64,000 nucleotides of DNA, taken from contig CAMDAD010000003.1 in assembly GCA_945888515.1 (NCBI GenBank), positions 1 through 64,000 on the forward strand, written 5' to 3'. The notes under the pieces are model-generated. The model was not told the origin of the DNA and ran no database searches. It saw only the letters and a program-made list of their open reading frames with translations. Shown one piece after another: positions 4,737-11,274 of the stretch. Positions within the stretch are counted from its first letter, which is position 1. Each line of letters opens with the position of its first letter. Origin of the DNA: Akkermansia muciniphila. Lineage in GTDB: Bacteria; Verrucomicrobiota; Verrucomicrobiia; Verrucomicrobiales; Akkermansiaceae. A program made the position numbers and the translations under genes.

Positions 4737-5723
4737 TCACGCTGATCCCGAAGTTCTCGCCTTTAGAAATTCACGGCTGAAAGCGATGCGATCGGCAGCG
4801 CTTTCTTGTGGTTTTTGTTTGTGGCGTTCCACTACAGGCATCAAGCGCTTCATCAGTCCCACGCCGTTGGCCATCTGGATCGCCAAGCCAGGACGGGCAT
4901 TCACCTCGATCATCAGTGGTCCCTTTTTTTCATCCACCATGACATCCACGCCGAGATAACCGAGCTCAGTCATTTCATGGCATGTCACGGCGATTTCGAG
5001 AATCTTGTCCCAATACGGCATCTGCACGCCGATGAGCGGCGATTTCAAGTCGGGATGATGTGTGATCATGGACCCGTGGTGCACGGCTCGTATCGTTCGA
5101 CCAGTCGCAAGATCGATGCCGATGCCGATAGCGCCTTGGTGAAGATTCGCTCGACCATCCGACTCTTTTGTAGCTGCACGCAACATCGCCATCACCGGGT
5201 AGCCATGAAGCATCACGATGCGTATATCGGGCGCTCCTTGGAAGCTGATCTCGGTGAGTATCTTAGCAGGCGTCACGCGATACTCAATGAGCGCGTGGTC
5301 GCGGTTACCGCCGAGACTGTAGAGACCCGCTAGAATATTTTCCGCGTGGTGTCGAAGCTCGGCACCCGTCAGACGAGAACCGCTAGGCTTCACGTATGTA
5401 TCACCATCGCGCTGGTCGATCACCAACACACCCTTGCCGCCACTGCCGCGCGCTGGTTTCATGACAAAGGCCTCATGCGTCAGCAGCTTTTTTTCCATAA
5501 GTGCGACATCGTGAGGCGAGGTCACCACCAGATAGGTTTGAGGCGCCTCCAGTCCACGCTCCTCGGCCAGTGCCTTAGTCATCAGTTTATTATCGACACG
5601 CTGATACAACCTCCGCGGATTGTTCGGCAAAAGAAACCGCGCATTGCGCATGTTAATGCCCACCACACCCATCGCACGAAGCTCATTGGGGGTGCGAAAC
5701 CAGCGATGCCACCATCGTTTCAT
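4737..5723 (-). CDS. RimK-like alpha-L-glutamate ligase-family protein (ATP-grasp)
   Basis: A 328-aa ATP-grasp enzyme of the group related to RimK, which adds glutamate (or another amino acid) to a protein or peptide. Nucleotide-binding sequence MKPARGSGGKGV lies at about 88-99. The metal-binding end MIEVNARPGLAIQMAN has the Glu and Asn expected for Mg2+ ligands. The N-terminus (NMRNARFLLPNNPRRLY) and length match the family annotated as alpha-L-glutamate ligase-like. It is the last gene of a tight operon, starting 6 bp after the 7TM protein, which itself follows a retropepsin-like protease by 8 bp. That trio is known from other bacteria, mainly Gammaproteobacteria. The acceptor substrate is unknown, and modification of an envelope peptide or protein is inference. 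Confidence 0.85.
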   Translation of the reverse strand: MKRWWHRWFRTPNELRAMGVVGINMRNARFLLPNNPRRLYQRVDNKLMTKALAEERGLEAPQTYLVVTSPHDVALMEKKLLTHEAFVMKPARGSGGKGVLVIDQRDGDTYVKPSGSRLTGAELRHHAENILAGLYSLGGNRDHALIEYRVTPAKILTEISFQGAPDIRIVMLHGYPVMAMLRAATKESDGRANLHQGAIGIGIDLATGRTIRAVHHGSMITHHPDLKSPLIGVQMPYWDKILEIAVTCHEMTELGYLGVDVMVDEKKGPLMIEVNARPGLAIQMANGVGLMKRLMPVVERHKQKPQESAADRIAFSREFLKARTSGSA

Positions 5724-5729
5724 ATCACT

Positions 5730-7280
5730 TCAGGATTCCGAAAAATTGCGAAAGCGATGGAGTTCGCTCAGACGATAGCCCGTGTAGCGACCGATCAACA
5801 AGATCGCTGCGAGGAGAACTAACAACAACTCGGGGAAGTATTGGGCCCAGTATTGGATCTGCGGAACTTTCATCACCAGATAGGCCACCACTGCCACGAA
5901 AACCGAACCACCCACCTGCATGATGGCGTTGCGTTTGCCCTCCTCTTCCCAAATCAGCGACATGCGCTCGATTGTCCAAGCAATGATGATCATCGGAAAC
6001 AAAGTGATCTGCAGCACATCACGCACGCCCAACCGCCAACTAATCAGCGACATCAATAGCATGAGCATCGTCACGATGACGACGCAGGCTGCCACGCGCG
6101 GCACTACGAGCAGATTCATGCTGGAGAGCAGGAAACGGAAATACAGACCCACAGCTACAATCACAGCAAACATCACGATGCCTAAGCCCAAGTCCATTTC
6201 AAGAAAGGCCAGCGCCAAGAGCACGGGCATGAAAGTGCCCAGAGTCGGAATCCCCACGATATTTCGCAAAATCACCACCACAAAAGCACCTAACGGAATC
6301 AGCACCACATAACGGAACACAGCGCGCTCGGAGACTGGCAGTGCGAGAATCGTCGATGCGAGAAATGGCGAATCGCGCAAGCTGTTCATGTGATCTAACG
6401 AAATCATATCTTTCACCACCGTGAAAGTGACTTTCGAGTTTTCCCCACCGATCACATCCAGCAGTGGCACACCGCCGCGGTTCCAGACGAAAATGTTCTC
6501 ACTCCGCAAGCTCACGTTCGGTTGCGCGGGGTTCTTGACCTTCCACGTCGCGCCATCGCAGTATTCAATCAAAGACAAAGCTTGTTGCGCACCGACGTTC
6601 GCATCCAAGCGAACTCCATGCGCTGGGCGTGCGGGGATACCGGCCATTTGCAACAAATCGATGCCCATCACGATCAGCAGATTTTCTTCACTGACCTTCT
6701 CGACGTTTTGGTAATGTCGACGCAGCAATAAAACCTCTTGTGCTGACTTATCTTTGACCAACTGTAAAAAAAGATGAGTAAAAAAAGTATCCGCATCTGC
6801 CGAAACCGAACGGGATTTTTCGATCAATCCTTGCGCCGCTTTTTCCGGTGGACCCGACAAGCCTGGTGAGTGGGCCACGGGGGAAGAACCTTTCACTTCC
6901 TCACCCCCGCGACCGGTTTTAAAACGCTCAGGAAAACGCACACGATAATAGAGCGCGTGAGATCCTTCCGACGGCTGTCGCGCCGACCACACCGCTTTGA
7001 GGCCAGAAAGTCCCGATTCTGTCGTATAGCCAAACCCGAGAGAACCGGCTTCTTGGCCTATGCTTTCGTCCGCTGCTGCAGCAGGCAACGCCAGCTTCAC
7101 GGTTACGGGTGTTGCCTCCTCGTCGTGAAAAAACGAAACCTTCGCTTCCACTAGCCAGGAACTTGCTTTGGTGCCAACCCAAAGCGGCACGCCTAGTGAA
7201 CGATTTTTATAAACTGCCAGCCCCATGCCCAGCACACACAACATCAGCACAGCCAGGATCAATCGCAATTGGGAGGGCAT
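5730..7280 (-). CDS. Inactive transglutaminase-like domain fused to a 7-transmembrane domain
   Basis: A 516-aa inner-membrane protein. One N-terminal TM helix (about 7-24, LILAVLMLCVLGMGLAV) leads into a periplasmic region to about 320. This includes a transglutaminase-like fold (about 175-300: FFTHLFLQLVKDKSAQEVLL, then GIDLLQMAGIPARPAHGV) without a recognisable catalytic Cys-His-Asp triad. From about 325 to the end are seven hydrophobic helices, beginning RYVVLIPLGAFVVVILRNIV. This matches the family of inactive transglutaminases fused to 7 TM helices. Its neighbours are a protease (upstream, 8 bp) and an ATP-grasp ligase (downstream, 6 bp). A plausible role is a membrane sensor or scaffold that binds a peptide substrate for the two enzymes, but this is inference. 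Confidence 0.85.
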   Translation of the reverse strand: MPSQLRLILAVLMLCVLGMGLAVYKNRSLGVPLWVGTKASSWLVEAKVSFFHDEEATPVTVKLALPAAAADESIGQEAGSLGFGYTTESGLSGLKAVWSARQPSEGSHALYYRVRFPERFKTGRGGEEVKGSSPVAHSPGLSGPPEKAAQGLIEKSRSVSADADTFFTHLFLQLVKDKSAQEVLLLRRHYQNVEKVSEENLLIVMGIDLLQMAGIPARPAHGVRLDANVGAQQALSLIEYCDGATWKVKNPAQPNVSLRSENIFVWNRGGVPLLDVIGGENSKVTFTVVKDMISLDHMNSLRDSPFLASTILALPVSERAVFRYVVLIPLGAFVVVILRNIVGIPTLGTFMPVLLALAFLEMDLGLGIVMFAVIVAVGLYFRFLLSSMNLLVVPRVAACVVIVTMLMLLMSLISWRLGVRDVLQITLFPMIIIAWTIERMSLIWEEEGKRNAIMQVGGSVFVAVVAYLVMKVPQIQYWAQYFPELLLVLLAAILLIGRYTGYRLSELHRFRNFSES

Positions 7281-7288
7281 AGATTTTC

Positions 7289-8005
7289 CTAGCGAAAGAT
7301 TTTATCGTCAGCCAAATACGTCCGACTCGGATCCACCCAGCCAAGAACTTGAATCGTGGAACGTCCAATCAATACCGGACAGATCATATTGTGGCGATTG
7401 TTCAGAGTAAATTCAGCTTTAATGCTACGTTCGCCGATCTGGAAATTCAAGCGCACAACGTTGCGACGCTCCGATTGCCCACCCGGTTCCTTGATGAGAA
7501 CAGTCCGCGCAAGAGGAGCCTCGATATCGTAGCGTTTCGCCCCAGCTTGACCAGGATCCGTGAGCACGAATTTCACCCACTTCTTCCCATCACGCTCGAA
7601 CAATTGCTGATTTTCGGCGTGTAACGAGCTCGTTAGAGCGCCCGTGTCCAGCTTTGCTACCATGGTGTCCGTCATTTCTCCCACTGTGACCTTTTCACGC
7701 CATCCGAATACCTGAACGGGATCCGAGCTTACAGGGCGAGCGACCTTGACCGAGTTTTCCGCTTCCTTCTTCTCCGCCGCCACCTCCTCATCCTCCTCCG
7801 GATCAAGATTGGCAGCATCATCGCTAGGTGCGTCCAGCGCTGCCTTCGTTGGCGCTTTGTCGACCTGATCCGATGCCTTAGTCACTGGAGCCGCTGCATT
7901 CGCAGTCGATACACCAGCCTTCTTTTCATCAGCCGCGCAGATCAGAGAAGTCAACAACAAGACGACTGACAGGCCGCGCAGCCATCTGTGAAAGAAAACA
8001 ATCAT
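7289..8005 (-). CDS. Secreted retropepsin-like aspartic protease (Zn_protease/RimB-like family)
   Basis: A 238-aa protein with a signal peptide (residues about 1-25, WLRGLSVVLLLTSLICAA). An acidic Ala/Asp/Glu-rich spacer (about 26-90) precedes a protease domain of about 140 residues starting at VQVFGWREKVTV. The catalytic-type motif KLDTGALTSSLHA (DTGA at 120-123) is followed by ERRNVVRLNFQIG, NNRHNMICPVLIGR and a final VDPSRTYL. Databases often call this family 'ATP-dependent zinc protease', but the DTGA motif is that of pepsin/retropepsin aspartic proteases. It is the first gene of the three-gene operon with the 7TM protein and the ATP-grasp ligase. The signal peptide puts it outside the cytoplasm, the opposite side from the ATP-grasp enzyme. 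Confidence 0.85.
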   Translation of the reverse strand: MIVFFHRWLRGLSVVLLLTSLICAADEKKAGVSTANAAAPVTKASDQVDKAPTKAALDAPSDDAANLDPEEDEEVAAEKKEAENSVKVARPVSSDPVQVFGWREKVTVGEMTDTMVAKLDTGALTSSLHAENQQLFERDGKKWVKFVLTDPGQAGAKRYDIEAPLARTVLIKEPGGQSERRNVVRLNFQIGERSIKAEFTLNNRHNMICPVLIGRSTIQVLGWVDPSRTYLADDKIFR

Positions 8006-8086: not shown

Positions 8087-8872
8087 TCAACGAAGAGCCA
8101 CTGGTGCTTTCGGCTGATTCACTTTCAGCGCTGCATCCGATAGACCAGCCGACCACGTGTTAAATTCTGCGGCATCGATCACTTCCATGGATCCGACCAT
8201 GTTACCATGACCTTCCCCGCAAAGCTGACCACAGACCACCGAGGTCTCCAGAGTCTTAATCGGAGTGAACCACATCGGAATCTCCTTGCCTGGGATCGCA
8301 TCCTGCTGGATGCGCATCGGCACTATCGAATAGTTGTGAATCACATCCTTACTGCAAATGTTCAAAATCGCAGGAACACCTTTCGGCAACTTCAAGATCG
8401 GGCTCGTGTAGTCGTCTGCGGCATTCGGATCGGTGTAATCAATGCCCAACTCATTGGTGCTGGACATCGCGAAGGGATCAATGCGTCCAAACTTACCGTC
8501 CGTGCCCGGATAATGATACGTCCAGCCAAACTGCCAGCCCACTACGCGCACGCGGACGTGGTCATTCTGCACAACCAGCTTGAAAGTATCAGTACGTTCG
8601 CGCCACAACGGAATGGCAAATCCTAGCAACAACACCGCTTCGATGATAATCACGGCGATCTCGATGTGCGAGGAGGCATGGTTGGTGACCCCATGGTAGT
8701 CGGCCTTGGGTTTCGCCGATCGACGGAAACGAATCAGAGTCACGGCTATGTAAATGGACCAACCGATGAACAGCACGATCATGAACCAATGCACGACATC
8801 GATCAAGTGATCAACTTGAGGACCGTGGTCGGAATAACTGTCAGGTATGCGTAGAATTTTGGATGGTGACAT
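8087..8872 (-). CDS. coxB: Cytochrome c oxidase subunit II (CuA)
   Basis: A 261-aa membrane-anchored subunit that takes electrons from cytochrome c. Two TM helices (about 27-47 and 70-90) precede the cupredoxin domain. CuA ligands are complete: H179 (DVIHNYSI), C214, C218, H222 and M225 within CGQLCGEGHGNM. The conserved aromatic stretch WQFGWTYHYPG lies at about 113-123. No heme c CXXCH is fused to its C-terminus. It is the last gene of the cox operon (10 bp after the small protein at 8882), whereas coxB is usually first, so the gene order here is I, III, IV, two small proteins, II. Confidence 0.95.
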   Translation of the reverse strand: MSPSKILRIPDSYSDHGPQVDHLIDVVHWFMIVLFIGWSIYIAVTLIRFRRSAKPKADYHGVTNHASSHIEIAVIIIEAVLLLGFAIPLWRERTDTFKLVVQNDHVRVRVVGWQFGWTYHYPGTDGKFGRIDPFAMSSTNELGIDYTDPNAADDYTSPILKLPKGVPAILNICSKDVIHNYSIVPMRIQQDAIPGKEIPMWFTPIKTLETSVVCGQLCGEGHGNMVGSMEVIDAAEFNTWSAGLSDAALKVNQPKAPVALR

Positions 8873-9690: not shown

Positions 9691-11274
9691 TTACATCAAA
9701 TAGAGAATAGGGAAGAGGAAGATCCAAACCAGGTCGACAAAGTGCCAGAACAGGCCGCCGACTTCCACACGATTCGCGAGCCATTCAGGATTGCTCTGAT
9801 ACATCTTTTTGCCACGGAACAAATAGTAACCCAGCACGATCGCTCCACCGATCACGTGCAAGCCGTGAAGGAAGGTCATGGTAAAATAAATCGCATAATA
9901 GGTATTCCACGCGGGGGTGAATTTACCGCTGAGGAAAACCAATTCGCGAGGAATATGCAGGTGTGCGAACGTGTGCTGCGGCTCGCGCAATTCGTAATTC
10001 GGTCCCATGAACTCCTCACTGGTGTGGATTTTCTCTTTTCCTTTGTCCACTCCATCGGCCTTCGCTACGAAGTCCTTCCAGCCGATACGGTAGCGCTCGG
10101 TCAGTGTCGGGACCCGCTTGGGTTGATTATTTTTATCGCGACCATATTTATCAAGCAGGTGTTGCTCCAACTTCGCGGTTTGCGCCTTATTCCACTCCCA
10201 AGCCTCTTTCGCCTCTTTGCTATGCTTGATCAGCCATGTATTTTCGATGGCTTTCACTGGATCGATCCCCTTCTTTTCCGCCTGCATAACCACGTGCCGG
10301 AAATCGATGGCATCGAGATTGTGGAATGCGACCGGACTATCCTGAAGTTTGCCGATGACAGCGGTATCGTCGCGAAGTCGGGATTGCTCAGCTCCTTCTT
10401 TGATGTCGCGGTGCTTGAACCAGAGGTTAGTGGGAGGCGTGACCACAAAGGACACACTTGGAGTCTCGACCATGATCCGAGCTTCGATCTTCGCAGGATT
10501 AATATTGATATTCGGAGCTAACTCCCAGCCTCGCTTGCCAGCATTTTCCGGTTTGGCTTTGGCTGCAACCCACTCACCACGCAGAGCGTCCGTGCGCACA
10601 TCGGAATTGTTAGCGCGGGATGTGAGATGATTTTTTTGAATCGTTTCCAGCAATTCAACGCTCAGTTTGGTGCCTTGAGGAAATTTTTGCCCTTGGAGCG
10701 AAAGTTCTTCGGCCAAGGTGATCGCAGCTTTTCCTGCATCCGCCTGACGGATGATTTCCTCTACCCATGGTTTGTGGAAACGCACGGTGCTGAAGGTCAG
10801 TTTCTCAGCGTTCACGTGAATGACATCAGCCTCATGAGGCTGACCAGCGGCGTCGATCGCCTTGGAATCTTTGTCAAGGTGACCTTCCAAAATCGTGTAA
10901 TCCGTCAGGCGCACCGCTTGGTGATGCCACTTGACGCTATACTCGATGCCTTTCAGTCCCATGAAAATGGCAGCGCAGGCGATGGTAATGCCCATGCATA
11001 TCTGGAAGACTCCCCACTTGCGCAATTTCAAAGCCGCCCAGGCAAACACCACTGTGACAGACGAAAAAATCAGCACGAAAGTATTGATCAAGCCAGGGAG
11101 AACTGGCAGCGCGCGCTCTGGCCATGGGTAATCGGCGCCTAAACGAAGATAAACATAAGAAGAGAAAAAACCGCCGAATAGCATGACCTCTGATGCCAGA
11201 AATAACCAGATGGCGATCTTGGAATTGCACATTCCAGTGTCTTTACGCGGCGTGAAAATGTAGGGAATTTCCAT
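9691..11274 (-). CDS. coxC: Cytochrome c oxidase subunit III with a very large extramembrane insertion
   Basis: The N-terminal part (about 1-112: KIAIWLFLASEVMLFGGFFS, WPERALPVLPGLINTFVLI, ICMGITIACAAIFMGLKGIEY) and the C-terminal part (about 440-527: RELVFLSGKFTPAWNTYYAI, FTMTFLHGLHVIGGAIVL, FWHFVDLVWIFLFPILYLM) together form an ordinary five-helix heme-copper oxidase subunit III. Between helices 3 and 4 lie about 325 mostly charged residues (about 113-440) with no TM segment. This makes a 527-aa protein where about 200 is usual. The frame is continuous and both ends are well conserved, so it is not an assembly artefact or two genes. The insert has no motif I recognise. It should project from one face of the oxidase and could contact an electron donor or supercomplex partner (inference). 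Confidence 0.9.
   Translation of the reverse strand: MEIPYIFTPRKDTGMCNSKIAIWLFLASEVMLFGGFFSSYVYLRLGADYPWPERALPVLPGLINTFVLIFSSVTVVFAWAALKLRKWGVFQICMGITIACAAIFMGLKGIEYSVKWHHQAVRLTDYTILEGHLDKDSKAIDAAGQPHEADVIHVNAEKLTFSTVRFHKPWVEEIIRQADAGKAAITLAEELSLQGQKFPQGTKLSVELLETIQKNHLTSRANNSDVRTDALRGEWVAAKAKPENAGKRGWELAPNININPAKIEARIMVETPSVSFVVTPPTNLWFKHRDIKEGAEQSRLRDDTAVIGKLQDSPVAFHNLDAIDFRHVVMQAEKKGIDPVKAIENTWLIKHSKEAKEAWEWNKAQTAKLEQHLLDKYGRDKNNQPKRVPTLTERYRIGWKDFVAKADGVDKGKEKIHTSEEFMGPNYELREPQHTFAHLHIPRELVFLSGKFTPAWNTYYAIYFTMTFLHGLHVIGGAIVLGYYLFRGKKMYQSNPEWLANRVEVGGLFWHFVDLVWIFLFPILYLM

Follow-up and report, generated by a model that had tools for sequence, protein, structure and literature searches.

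Why would a secreted protease, a membrane protein and an ATP-grasp ligase be encoded by three nearly abutting genes in Akkermansia muciniphila? The genes in question occupy positions 4737 to 8005 of a 64,000-nucleotide stretch (contig CAMDAD010000003.1 of assembly GCA_945888515.1; hereafter the window). They almost certainly constitute a verrucomicrobial rloABC operon. The rlo system itself is already known: it was described as rloA-rloB-rloC in Pseudomonas aeruginosa in June 2025 (accessible text of PMC12239564), where it controls low-salt survival, β-lactam sensitivity, cell shape and biofilm. For the mechanism, we favour a scheme in which RloC makes polyglutamate (polyE), RloB moves it and RloA trims it, to which we assign a probability of about 0.45. 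It is the best reading because it accounts for the published epistasis in P. aeruginosa, the kept polyE site of RloA and the RimK-like build of RloC.

An rlo-type operon in the window

All three are minus-strand genes and follow one another as A-B-C, with gaps of 8 bp between rloA and rloB and 6 bp between rloB and rloC. The rloA-like gene (7289..8005) encodes a secreted retropepsin-like aspartic protease of 238 amino acids, which matched PF05618 with 129 bits (cut-off 27). The rloB-like gene (5730..7280) encodes a protein of 516 amino acids that combines a transglutaminase fold with multiple transmembrane segments and matched both PF14402 (297 bits) and PF14400 (94 bits; cut-offs 25). The product of the rloC-like gene (4737..5723) is an ATP-grasp α-L-glutamate-ligase-like protein of 328 amino acids, which scored above the cut-offs of TIGR02291 (384.7 bits, cut-off 314.2) and PF14397 (277.7 bits, cut-off 31.4). 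The NCBIfam models named after RloA1, RloA2, RloA3 and RloB are narrow equivalog or exception models, and the window proteins stayed below their strict cut-offs: RloA scored 127.5 against RloA3 (cut-off 210), 78.3 against RloA2 (250) and 69.3 against RloA1 (280), and RloB scored 307.7 bits, under the 'exception' cut-off of 900. We therefore speak of an rlo-type operon of another lineage, a name under which functional equivalence stays unproven. A consensus scan revealed no promoter-like site 5' of rloA, the scan counts being at chance level.

The original prediction for this region, made without database searches, had proposed three genes with 6-8 bp gaps for a secreted retropepsin-like protease with a DTGA motif, a membrane protein with a dead transglutaminase fold and a RimK-like ligase. 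Open reading frames (ORFs) and coordinates agreed with it, and so did each of the family assignments. Its topology, with the protease outside, the ligase inside and the seven-transmembrane protein between them, also proved right, and what it surmised about glutamate chemistry and stress on the envelope finds support in P. aeruginosa (accessible text of PMC12239564). It was incomplete in presenting the system as under-described, as rloABC had been named and NCBIfam models exist.

RloB and RloC form a constant pair, RloA a possibly exchangeable partner

A search with PF14402 in 387 genomes of the window's phylum identified RloB in 42, of which 14 belong to the window's own family. RloC followed RloB directly in 42/42 of these loci, although at L046 it was readable in its first part only. 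RloA was found upstream of RloB at 39 of the 42 loci, namely in the window, at 36 loci by BLAST, and at L048 and L050, where the upstream ORFs matched PF05618 at 69.2 and 66.3 bits. Two of the three other loci (L041 and L061) are at contig ends and the third (L042) carries a different gene at this place. A scan of named genomes yielded at least 577 relatives, and in the best 80 of these, ranked by likeness to the window, RloA was upstream in 80/80 and RloC downstream in 79/80, giving the full A-B-C order in 79/80. The single RloC miss (L082) stops at a contig end, and at L096 RloC is read as two ORFs. These 80 loci are mostly from Proteobacteria and Verrucomicrobiota, joined by two Campylobacterota-type loci, one from Nitrospirales and two metagenome-assembled genomes (MAGs) of Phycisphaerae. 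The original prediction was also right that the three families co-occur.

Among the matches listed, the closest named relatives were from Verrucomicrobiaceae, Haloferula, Prosthecobacter and Akkermansiaceae, at 56-58% identity. In a FastTree phylogeny of 122 RloB sequences, the window protein fell within its own family in a clade of 22 (support 1.0), and the proteobacterial sequences were nested in the wider spread; this tree was midpoint-rooted, which makes its root arbitrary, it contains 80 named loci picked for closeness to the window, and it leaves out L169. According to the accessible text of PMC12239564, Proteobacteria account for 96% of RloB hits. The literature searched contained no report of rlo in Verrucomicrobiota.

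At the L042 locus, the RloA position is taken by a gene (L042:1546-3891, genome G185) for a secreted-looking Peptidase_C25 protein of 781 amino acids (26.2 bits versus a cut-off of 23), which overlaps rloB by 4 bp. The C25 assignment is weak because a genome-wide PF01364 search missed the gene. PF05618 was not found in G185, a genome that is 86% complete, nor in the genome of L061 (G358). At L169 (L169:5321-8319, genome G390), rloBC adjoins a tRNA-Arg gene and an integrase-like ORF, as judged by eye, and has no RloA alongside; these borders suggest a mobile-element junction. Separability of the three genes in relatives, which the original prediction had named as evidence against its view, was for the most part not observed: RloC followed RloB in 42/42 loci, but RloA was replaced in L042 and non-adjacent in L169. 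The presence of both RloB and RloC in all 42 surveyed genomes that carry RloB, along with a protease that could be replaced in one of them, suggests that RloBC is the core of the system and that its product is what the protease has to limit.

Some loci showed further variation. A 206-residue ORF without a Pfam match is present between rloA and rloB in the L045:4854-6001 region. In family f40 (L045, L047, L048 and L050), RloA has a lipoprotein-like start as judged by eye, and a locus titled Arcobacter MAG carries a second RloA-like gene right 3' of rloC (L119:7470-8027). A giant RloC fusion at L046 was only apparent, being an artefact of an N stretch.

RloA has kept the predicted polyglutamate-binding residues

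Window RloA has a hydrophobic, signal-like N-terminus (judged by eye), followed by a long, acidic, Ala-rich linker. K-L-D-T-G-A spans residues 118-123, which places DTGA at 120-123. Its PDB relatives by sequence are 2pma, 9g58 and 9g59. When aligned via 9g58, the catalytic D48 of P. aeruginosa RloA falls on D120 of the window protein, and the polyE-binding residues K46, R92, R114 and R137 fall on K118, R167, R181 and R204. K118 stands two residues before the catalytic Asp of the window protein. In 9g58 itself, arginines are found 44, 66 and 89 residues past its own catalytic Asp, the same distances that separate R92, R114 and R137 from D48 in the published protein. In 119 RloA sequences (39 from the phylum survey and 80 from the named loci), the Asp was invariant (119/119), position 118 was K or R in 116, R181 was found in 117 and R204 in 115, while position 167 was R in 98 and K in 9 more. 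By these alignments, the polyE-binding residues are kept in window RloA, and cleavage of polyE by this enzyme is predicted. Since the site is kept, the target of RloA is probably glutamate-rich.

The accessible text of PMC12239564 describes RloA-type crystals as retropepsin-like dimers and states that P. aeruginosa RloA cleaves polyE of 8 or 10 residues and not of 6 or fewer, two polyE-binding arginines being important both in vitro and in vivo. Bacteria without the three RloA paralogues (rloA1-3) do not grow at low salt and are sensitised to some β-lactams, and the rlo phenotypes extend to cell shape and are of a wall type. Deletion of rloB or rloC in the rloA1-3-less strain rescues low-salt growth fully and the other defects partly (same source). 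This epistasis suggests that RloB and RloC together make or expose the target of RloA. A suppressor screen with flagellar mutants of P. aeruginosa recorded 2, 4, 1 and 1 hits in PA1766, PA1767, PA1768 and PA1769, respectively (accessible text of PMC7314104).

The window operon shares with its P. aeruginosa counterpart the three families, their order, a signal-bearing protease and the polyE-binding residues, and in both organisms the genome holds a separate rimB-rimK pair and a spare, unlinked gene for a secreted RloA-like protein. In the window, the RloA linker is longer and the operon is placed behind a cox gene cluster. The proteases are also less alike in their cysteines: Pseudomonas RloA has a two-Cys disulfide, whereas window RloA contains only C23, in the signal-like part, and C209. 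With a single Cys past the signal-like start, window RloA would have no intrachain disulfide.

RloC resembles RimK but is distinct from the rim system

No signal sequence was seen in RloC, and its nearest PDB relatives by sequence are the RimK structures 5zct and 4iwx. Residues K46, K89, D260, E273 and N275 were present in 119/119 RloC sequences (a count that excludes L046, L082 and L096) and in the genome's own RimK; we take these residues to have the catalytic roles familiar from the ATP-grasp family. Other residues are invariant in RloC and set it apart from RimK, for example R26, N27, R37, H223-D225 and R277. RimK makes poly-α-L-glutamate of up to 28-36 units and adds glutamate to RpsF, from which RimB removes it (accessible text of PMC11957791). 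RimB and RimK are thus a homologous protease and ATP-grasp ligase, with catalytic residues in common with window RloA and RloC, but this pair works without an RloB and its ligase has the full RimK N-terminal region, whereas in the window RloB stands between protease and ligase and the N-terminus of RloC is short. Because the genome contains its own rimB-rimK pair (L164, with a 4-bp overlap), the rlo genes of the window are distinct from rim. A third RloA-like gene of this genome, unlinked to the others (L165), encodes a protein of 176 amino acids that has DTGA and begins with a signal-like segment.

RloB as a candidate conduit

RloB consists of an N-terminal helix, a periplasmic transglutaminase-fold domain (residues ~40-300) and a C-terminal domain with multiple transmembrane segments (~304-516). 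Window RloB did not match PF01841, and no catalytic Cys was apparent by eye in its alignment with the RloB proteins of L041 and L042, which have a transglutaminase domain matching PF01841. In the RloB tree, these two proteins form one group. We therefore read the window domain as inactive. An AlphaFold2 model of full-length RloB, built with 44 sequences, reached a mean predicted local distance difference test score (pLDDT) of 85.7 and a predicted template modelling score (pTM) of 0.80, and its periplasmic domain resembled 3isr (Z 13.7, root-mean-square deviation (rmsd) 4.0 Å, 223 aligned residues). The C-terminal tail, Y-x-G-Y-R-L-x-E-L, is among the most conserved parts of RloB, as expected of a docking site.

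For the membrane domain, the structural likeness depended on the model. In the full-length model, the region at ~345-450 matched AcrB-type chains, with Z from 7.2 down to 5.6, and a single Rnf chain, with Z 6.5. When the domain was modelled alone (pLDDT 78.2), the six best matches were all Rnf, Nqr and Mtr chains, from 9eri_A (Z 8.2, rmsd 3.3, 128 aligned) to the sixth, 8q3v_c (Z 5.9), and other chains scored 4.8. Short helices at 47-57 and 118-122 of this model may be re-entrant. The Z values of this second search come from a re-ranking of 86 Foldseek chains, and for helical bundles the structure tool advises caution below a Z of ~13. Sequence profiles lent no support: profile-profile scores between RloB and Rnf/Nqr proteins were 11.4, 12.7 and 15.3, against 12.4-15.3 for decoys reversed on one side (10 sequences, three sets; the positive control, RsxA/NqrE versus RsxE/NqrD, gave 99.1%), and homology is not supported by sequence. 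The Rnf/Nqr likeness of the modelled membrane domain is therefore a weak lead only, and this faint transport-type fold turns the transport of glutamate chains into a concrete, testable hypothesis.

A system that works in a similar manner is PgsB-PgsC-PgsA (CapBCA), in which poly-γ-glutamate synthesis involves a ligase, a membrane subunit and an exported depolymerase. PgsB is not known as an ATP-grasp enzyme, and the polymer that it makes is γ-linked. By eye, RloB and PgsC share a look-alike motif (GIPTLGTFMPVLLAL versus GIAAGGLVVPGYLAL), which prompted a comparison of the RloB membrane domain with PgsC; the top-scoring local alignment of the two profiles places these motifs in register. A local hhalign run with 42 RloB and 5 mixed PgsC-type sequences, for which no decoys were run, scored 16.9 with a probability of 0.6%. 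With 121 RloB sequences, the score was 13.0 against 5 classic PgsC proteins (one-side-reversed decoys 14.1 and 13.5) and 14.4 against 9 mixed PgsC proteins (decoys 16.0 and 16.7). Homology to PgsC is accordingly not supported, and hmmscan did not list PF14102 for window RloB at E 1. Sequence searches of the PDB gave no match to PgsC, to RloB or to the membrane domain of RloB, a fold search against viral proteins gave none with E < 0.001, and neither RloB nor PgsC was present in the viral contigs. A PF14102 match at L175 was weak, and this ORF reads by eye as an ABC transporter. Single proteins with PF14102 (CapC) in tandem (x2) and a long C-terminal part were observed in G040 (L073/L077) and G052 (L074/L076).

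Make, move and trim: weighing the mechanism

In the mechanism that we favour, RloC would use ATP to build an α-linked glutamate chain in the cytosol, either free or on a small acceptor, in the manner of RimK. The multi-transmembrane domain of RloB would serve as a conduit that carries this chain across the inner membrane; on the periplasmic side, the dead-transglutaminase domain of the same protein would hold the chain as it emerges. RloA, outside, would cut chains of about 8 or more glutamates and so set the chain length. Without RloA, the uncut polyanion would accumulate in the periplasm or jam RloB, harming wall growth and causing death at low salt; upon removal of RloB or RloC the polymer would be gone, and the harm with it. 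Synthesis by RloC, transport by RloB, and the validity of both, and of trimming, in Verrucomicrobiota are inferred. Family membership, gene order, the RloB-RloC pairing and the C25-family protease at the RloA place of L042 speak for this mechanism, as do the conserved tail of RloB and the Rnf, Nqr and Mtr matches of its membrane domain modelled alone.

Several observations weigh against it. TIGR02291 is a 'hypothetical equivalog' model, and the literature searched offers no demonstration of polyglutamate synthesis by RloC. RloC is without most of the RimK N-terminal region, having 45 instead of ~98 residues ahead of the first shared Lys, and its acceptor may for that reason differ from that of RimK. 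Deleting rloB or rloC singly causes mild defects in P. aeruginosa (accessible text of PMC12239564), which implies that the rlo product is useful and more than a poison. rloBC occurs without an adjacent RloA in G118 (at a contig end) and G390, each of which holds one PF05618 gene elsewhere. For the conduit, the Rnf/Nqr matches stay below the caution level and have a best Foldseek E of 1.5, AcrB-type chains outrank Rnf for the same region of the full-length model, and the profile scores for both Rnf/Nqr and PgsC do not exceed those of reversed decoys.

A different reading, which we consider unlikely, is a modification cycle. RloC would glutamylate a specific acceptor, either a protein or a peptidoglycan precursor, which would then be exported or flipped, scaffolded or recognised by RloB, and stripped of its glutamates outside by RloA. 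The RimK/RimB cycle on RpsF offers a precedent, and both the wall-type phenotypes of P. aeruginosa and the differing N-terminus of RloC would fit. Yet the 22 largest neighbour clusters at 121 loci include no widely shared fourth gene that could encode the acceptor, which may be unlinked, and, according to the accessible text of PMC12239564, no polyE substrate encoded in the genome was found. Less probable still would be a sensor, in which the dead-transglutaminase domain binds periplasmic glutamate chains or wall peptides, the membrane domain activates RloC, and RloA resets the system by destroying the ligand. A dead enzyme fold could well serve as a binding domain, and the charged, conserved C-terminal tail of RloB could contact RloC; structurally, however, the membrane domain comes closest, if weakly, to transport-type proteins (Rnf/Nqr, AcrB) and not to receptors, and the rescue of RloA-less cells by rloB deletion, which equals that by rloC deletion, would fit an activating sensor and not an inhibiting one (accessible text of PMC12239564). 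Regulated proteolysis of RloB or another envelope protein by RloA, with incidental glutamate chemistry, is suggested by a secreted protease gene lying next to one whose membrane-bound product has a sizeable periplasmic domain, but it is very improbable given that RloA requires polyE of at least 8 residues and that two of its binding arginines matter (accessible text of PMC12239564), that these arginines are kept in window RloA, and that a glutamate run of this kind is missing from window RloB.

The make-move-trim mechanism can be extended into a bolder proposal, of which we are rather doubtful: rloBC would be a second, independent polyglutamate synthase-exporter whose ATP-grasp ligase delivers α-polyglutamate to an Rnf/Nqr-like conduit, possibly ion-driven and PgsC-like, with a dead-transglutaminase binding domain as its cap, and an exchangeable exported protease (RloA or C25-family) would trim the periplasmic polyanion and so tune the osmotic balance of the envelope. 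Three points are apparently new, with no prior report found in the literature searched: how rlo is spread among Verrucomicrobiota, the C25-family protease at the RloA place, and the Rnf/Nqr-like lead.

Genes in the vicinity of rlo

Genes in the ~3-6 kb flanks of rlo were clustered, using crude gene calls. Beyond RloA, RloB and RloC, the 22 largest clusters include antisense ORFs, lineage-bound neighbours and large superfamilies, such as ABC transporters (11 loci) and response-regulator/GGDEF proteins (12 loci). Among the lineage-bound neighbours are genes that we take to be CmoA/CmoB-like, in 22 Vibrio/Shewanella-type loci. A GGDEF gene (PF00990, a match checked in L145 only) is located just 3' of rloC at L145:7712-10087, and GGDEF or response-regulator-type ORFs lie beside rloC at L094, L122, L133-L136, L140, L141 and L143; with L145, these are Endozoicomonas and Nitrosomonas loci. 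Such neighbours may reflect a link to cyclic-di-GMP that echoes rimA of the rim locus, but these families are large and chance could account for the pattern.

In the window, the gene ahead of rloA encodes cytochrome c oxidase subunit II (coxII, 8087..8872, minus strand; PF00116 33.9 bits versus a cut-off of 22), which belongs to the context and not to the rlo system; its end is 81 bp from the start of rloA. This cox-rlo junction was found in 2 of 121 other stretches tested, which vary in flank length, and both were loci of the same genus (L058 and L059). A general tie of rlo to cytochrome oxidase is unlikely, since cox genes were present in these two stretches only. Also on the minus strand, at 9691-11274, an ORF for cytochrome oxidase subunit III (527 amino acids, PF00510) contains a long hydrophilic insertion, and this ORF is kept in L058 (84% identity) and L059 (75% identity). 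Near the start of the window, at 605-1945 on the minus strand, an ORF of 446 amino acids combines two domains, rRNA adenine dimethylase (PF00398) and NUDIX (PF00293).

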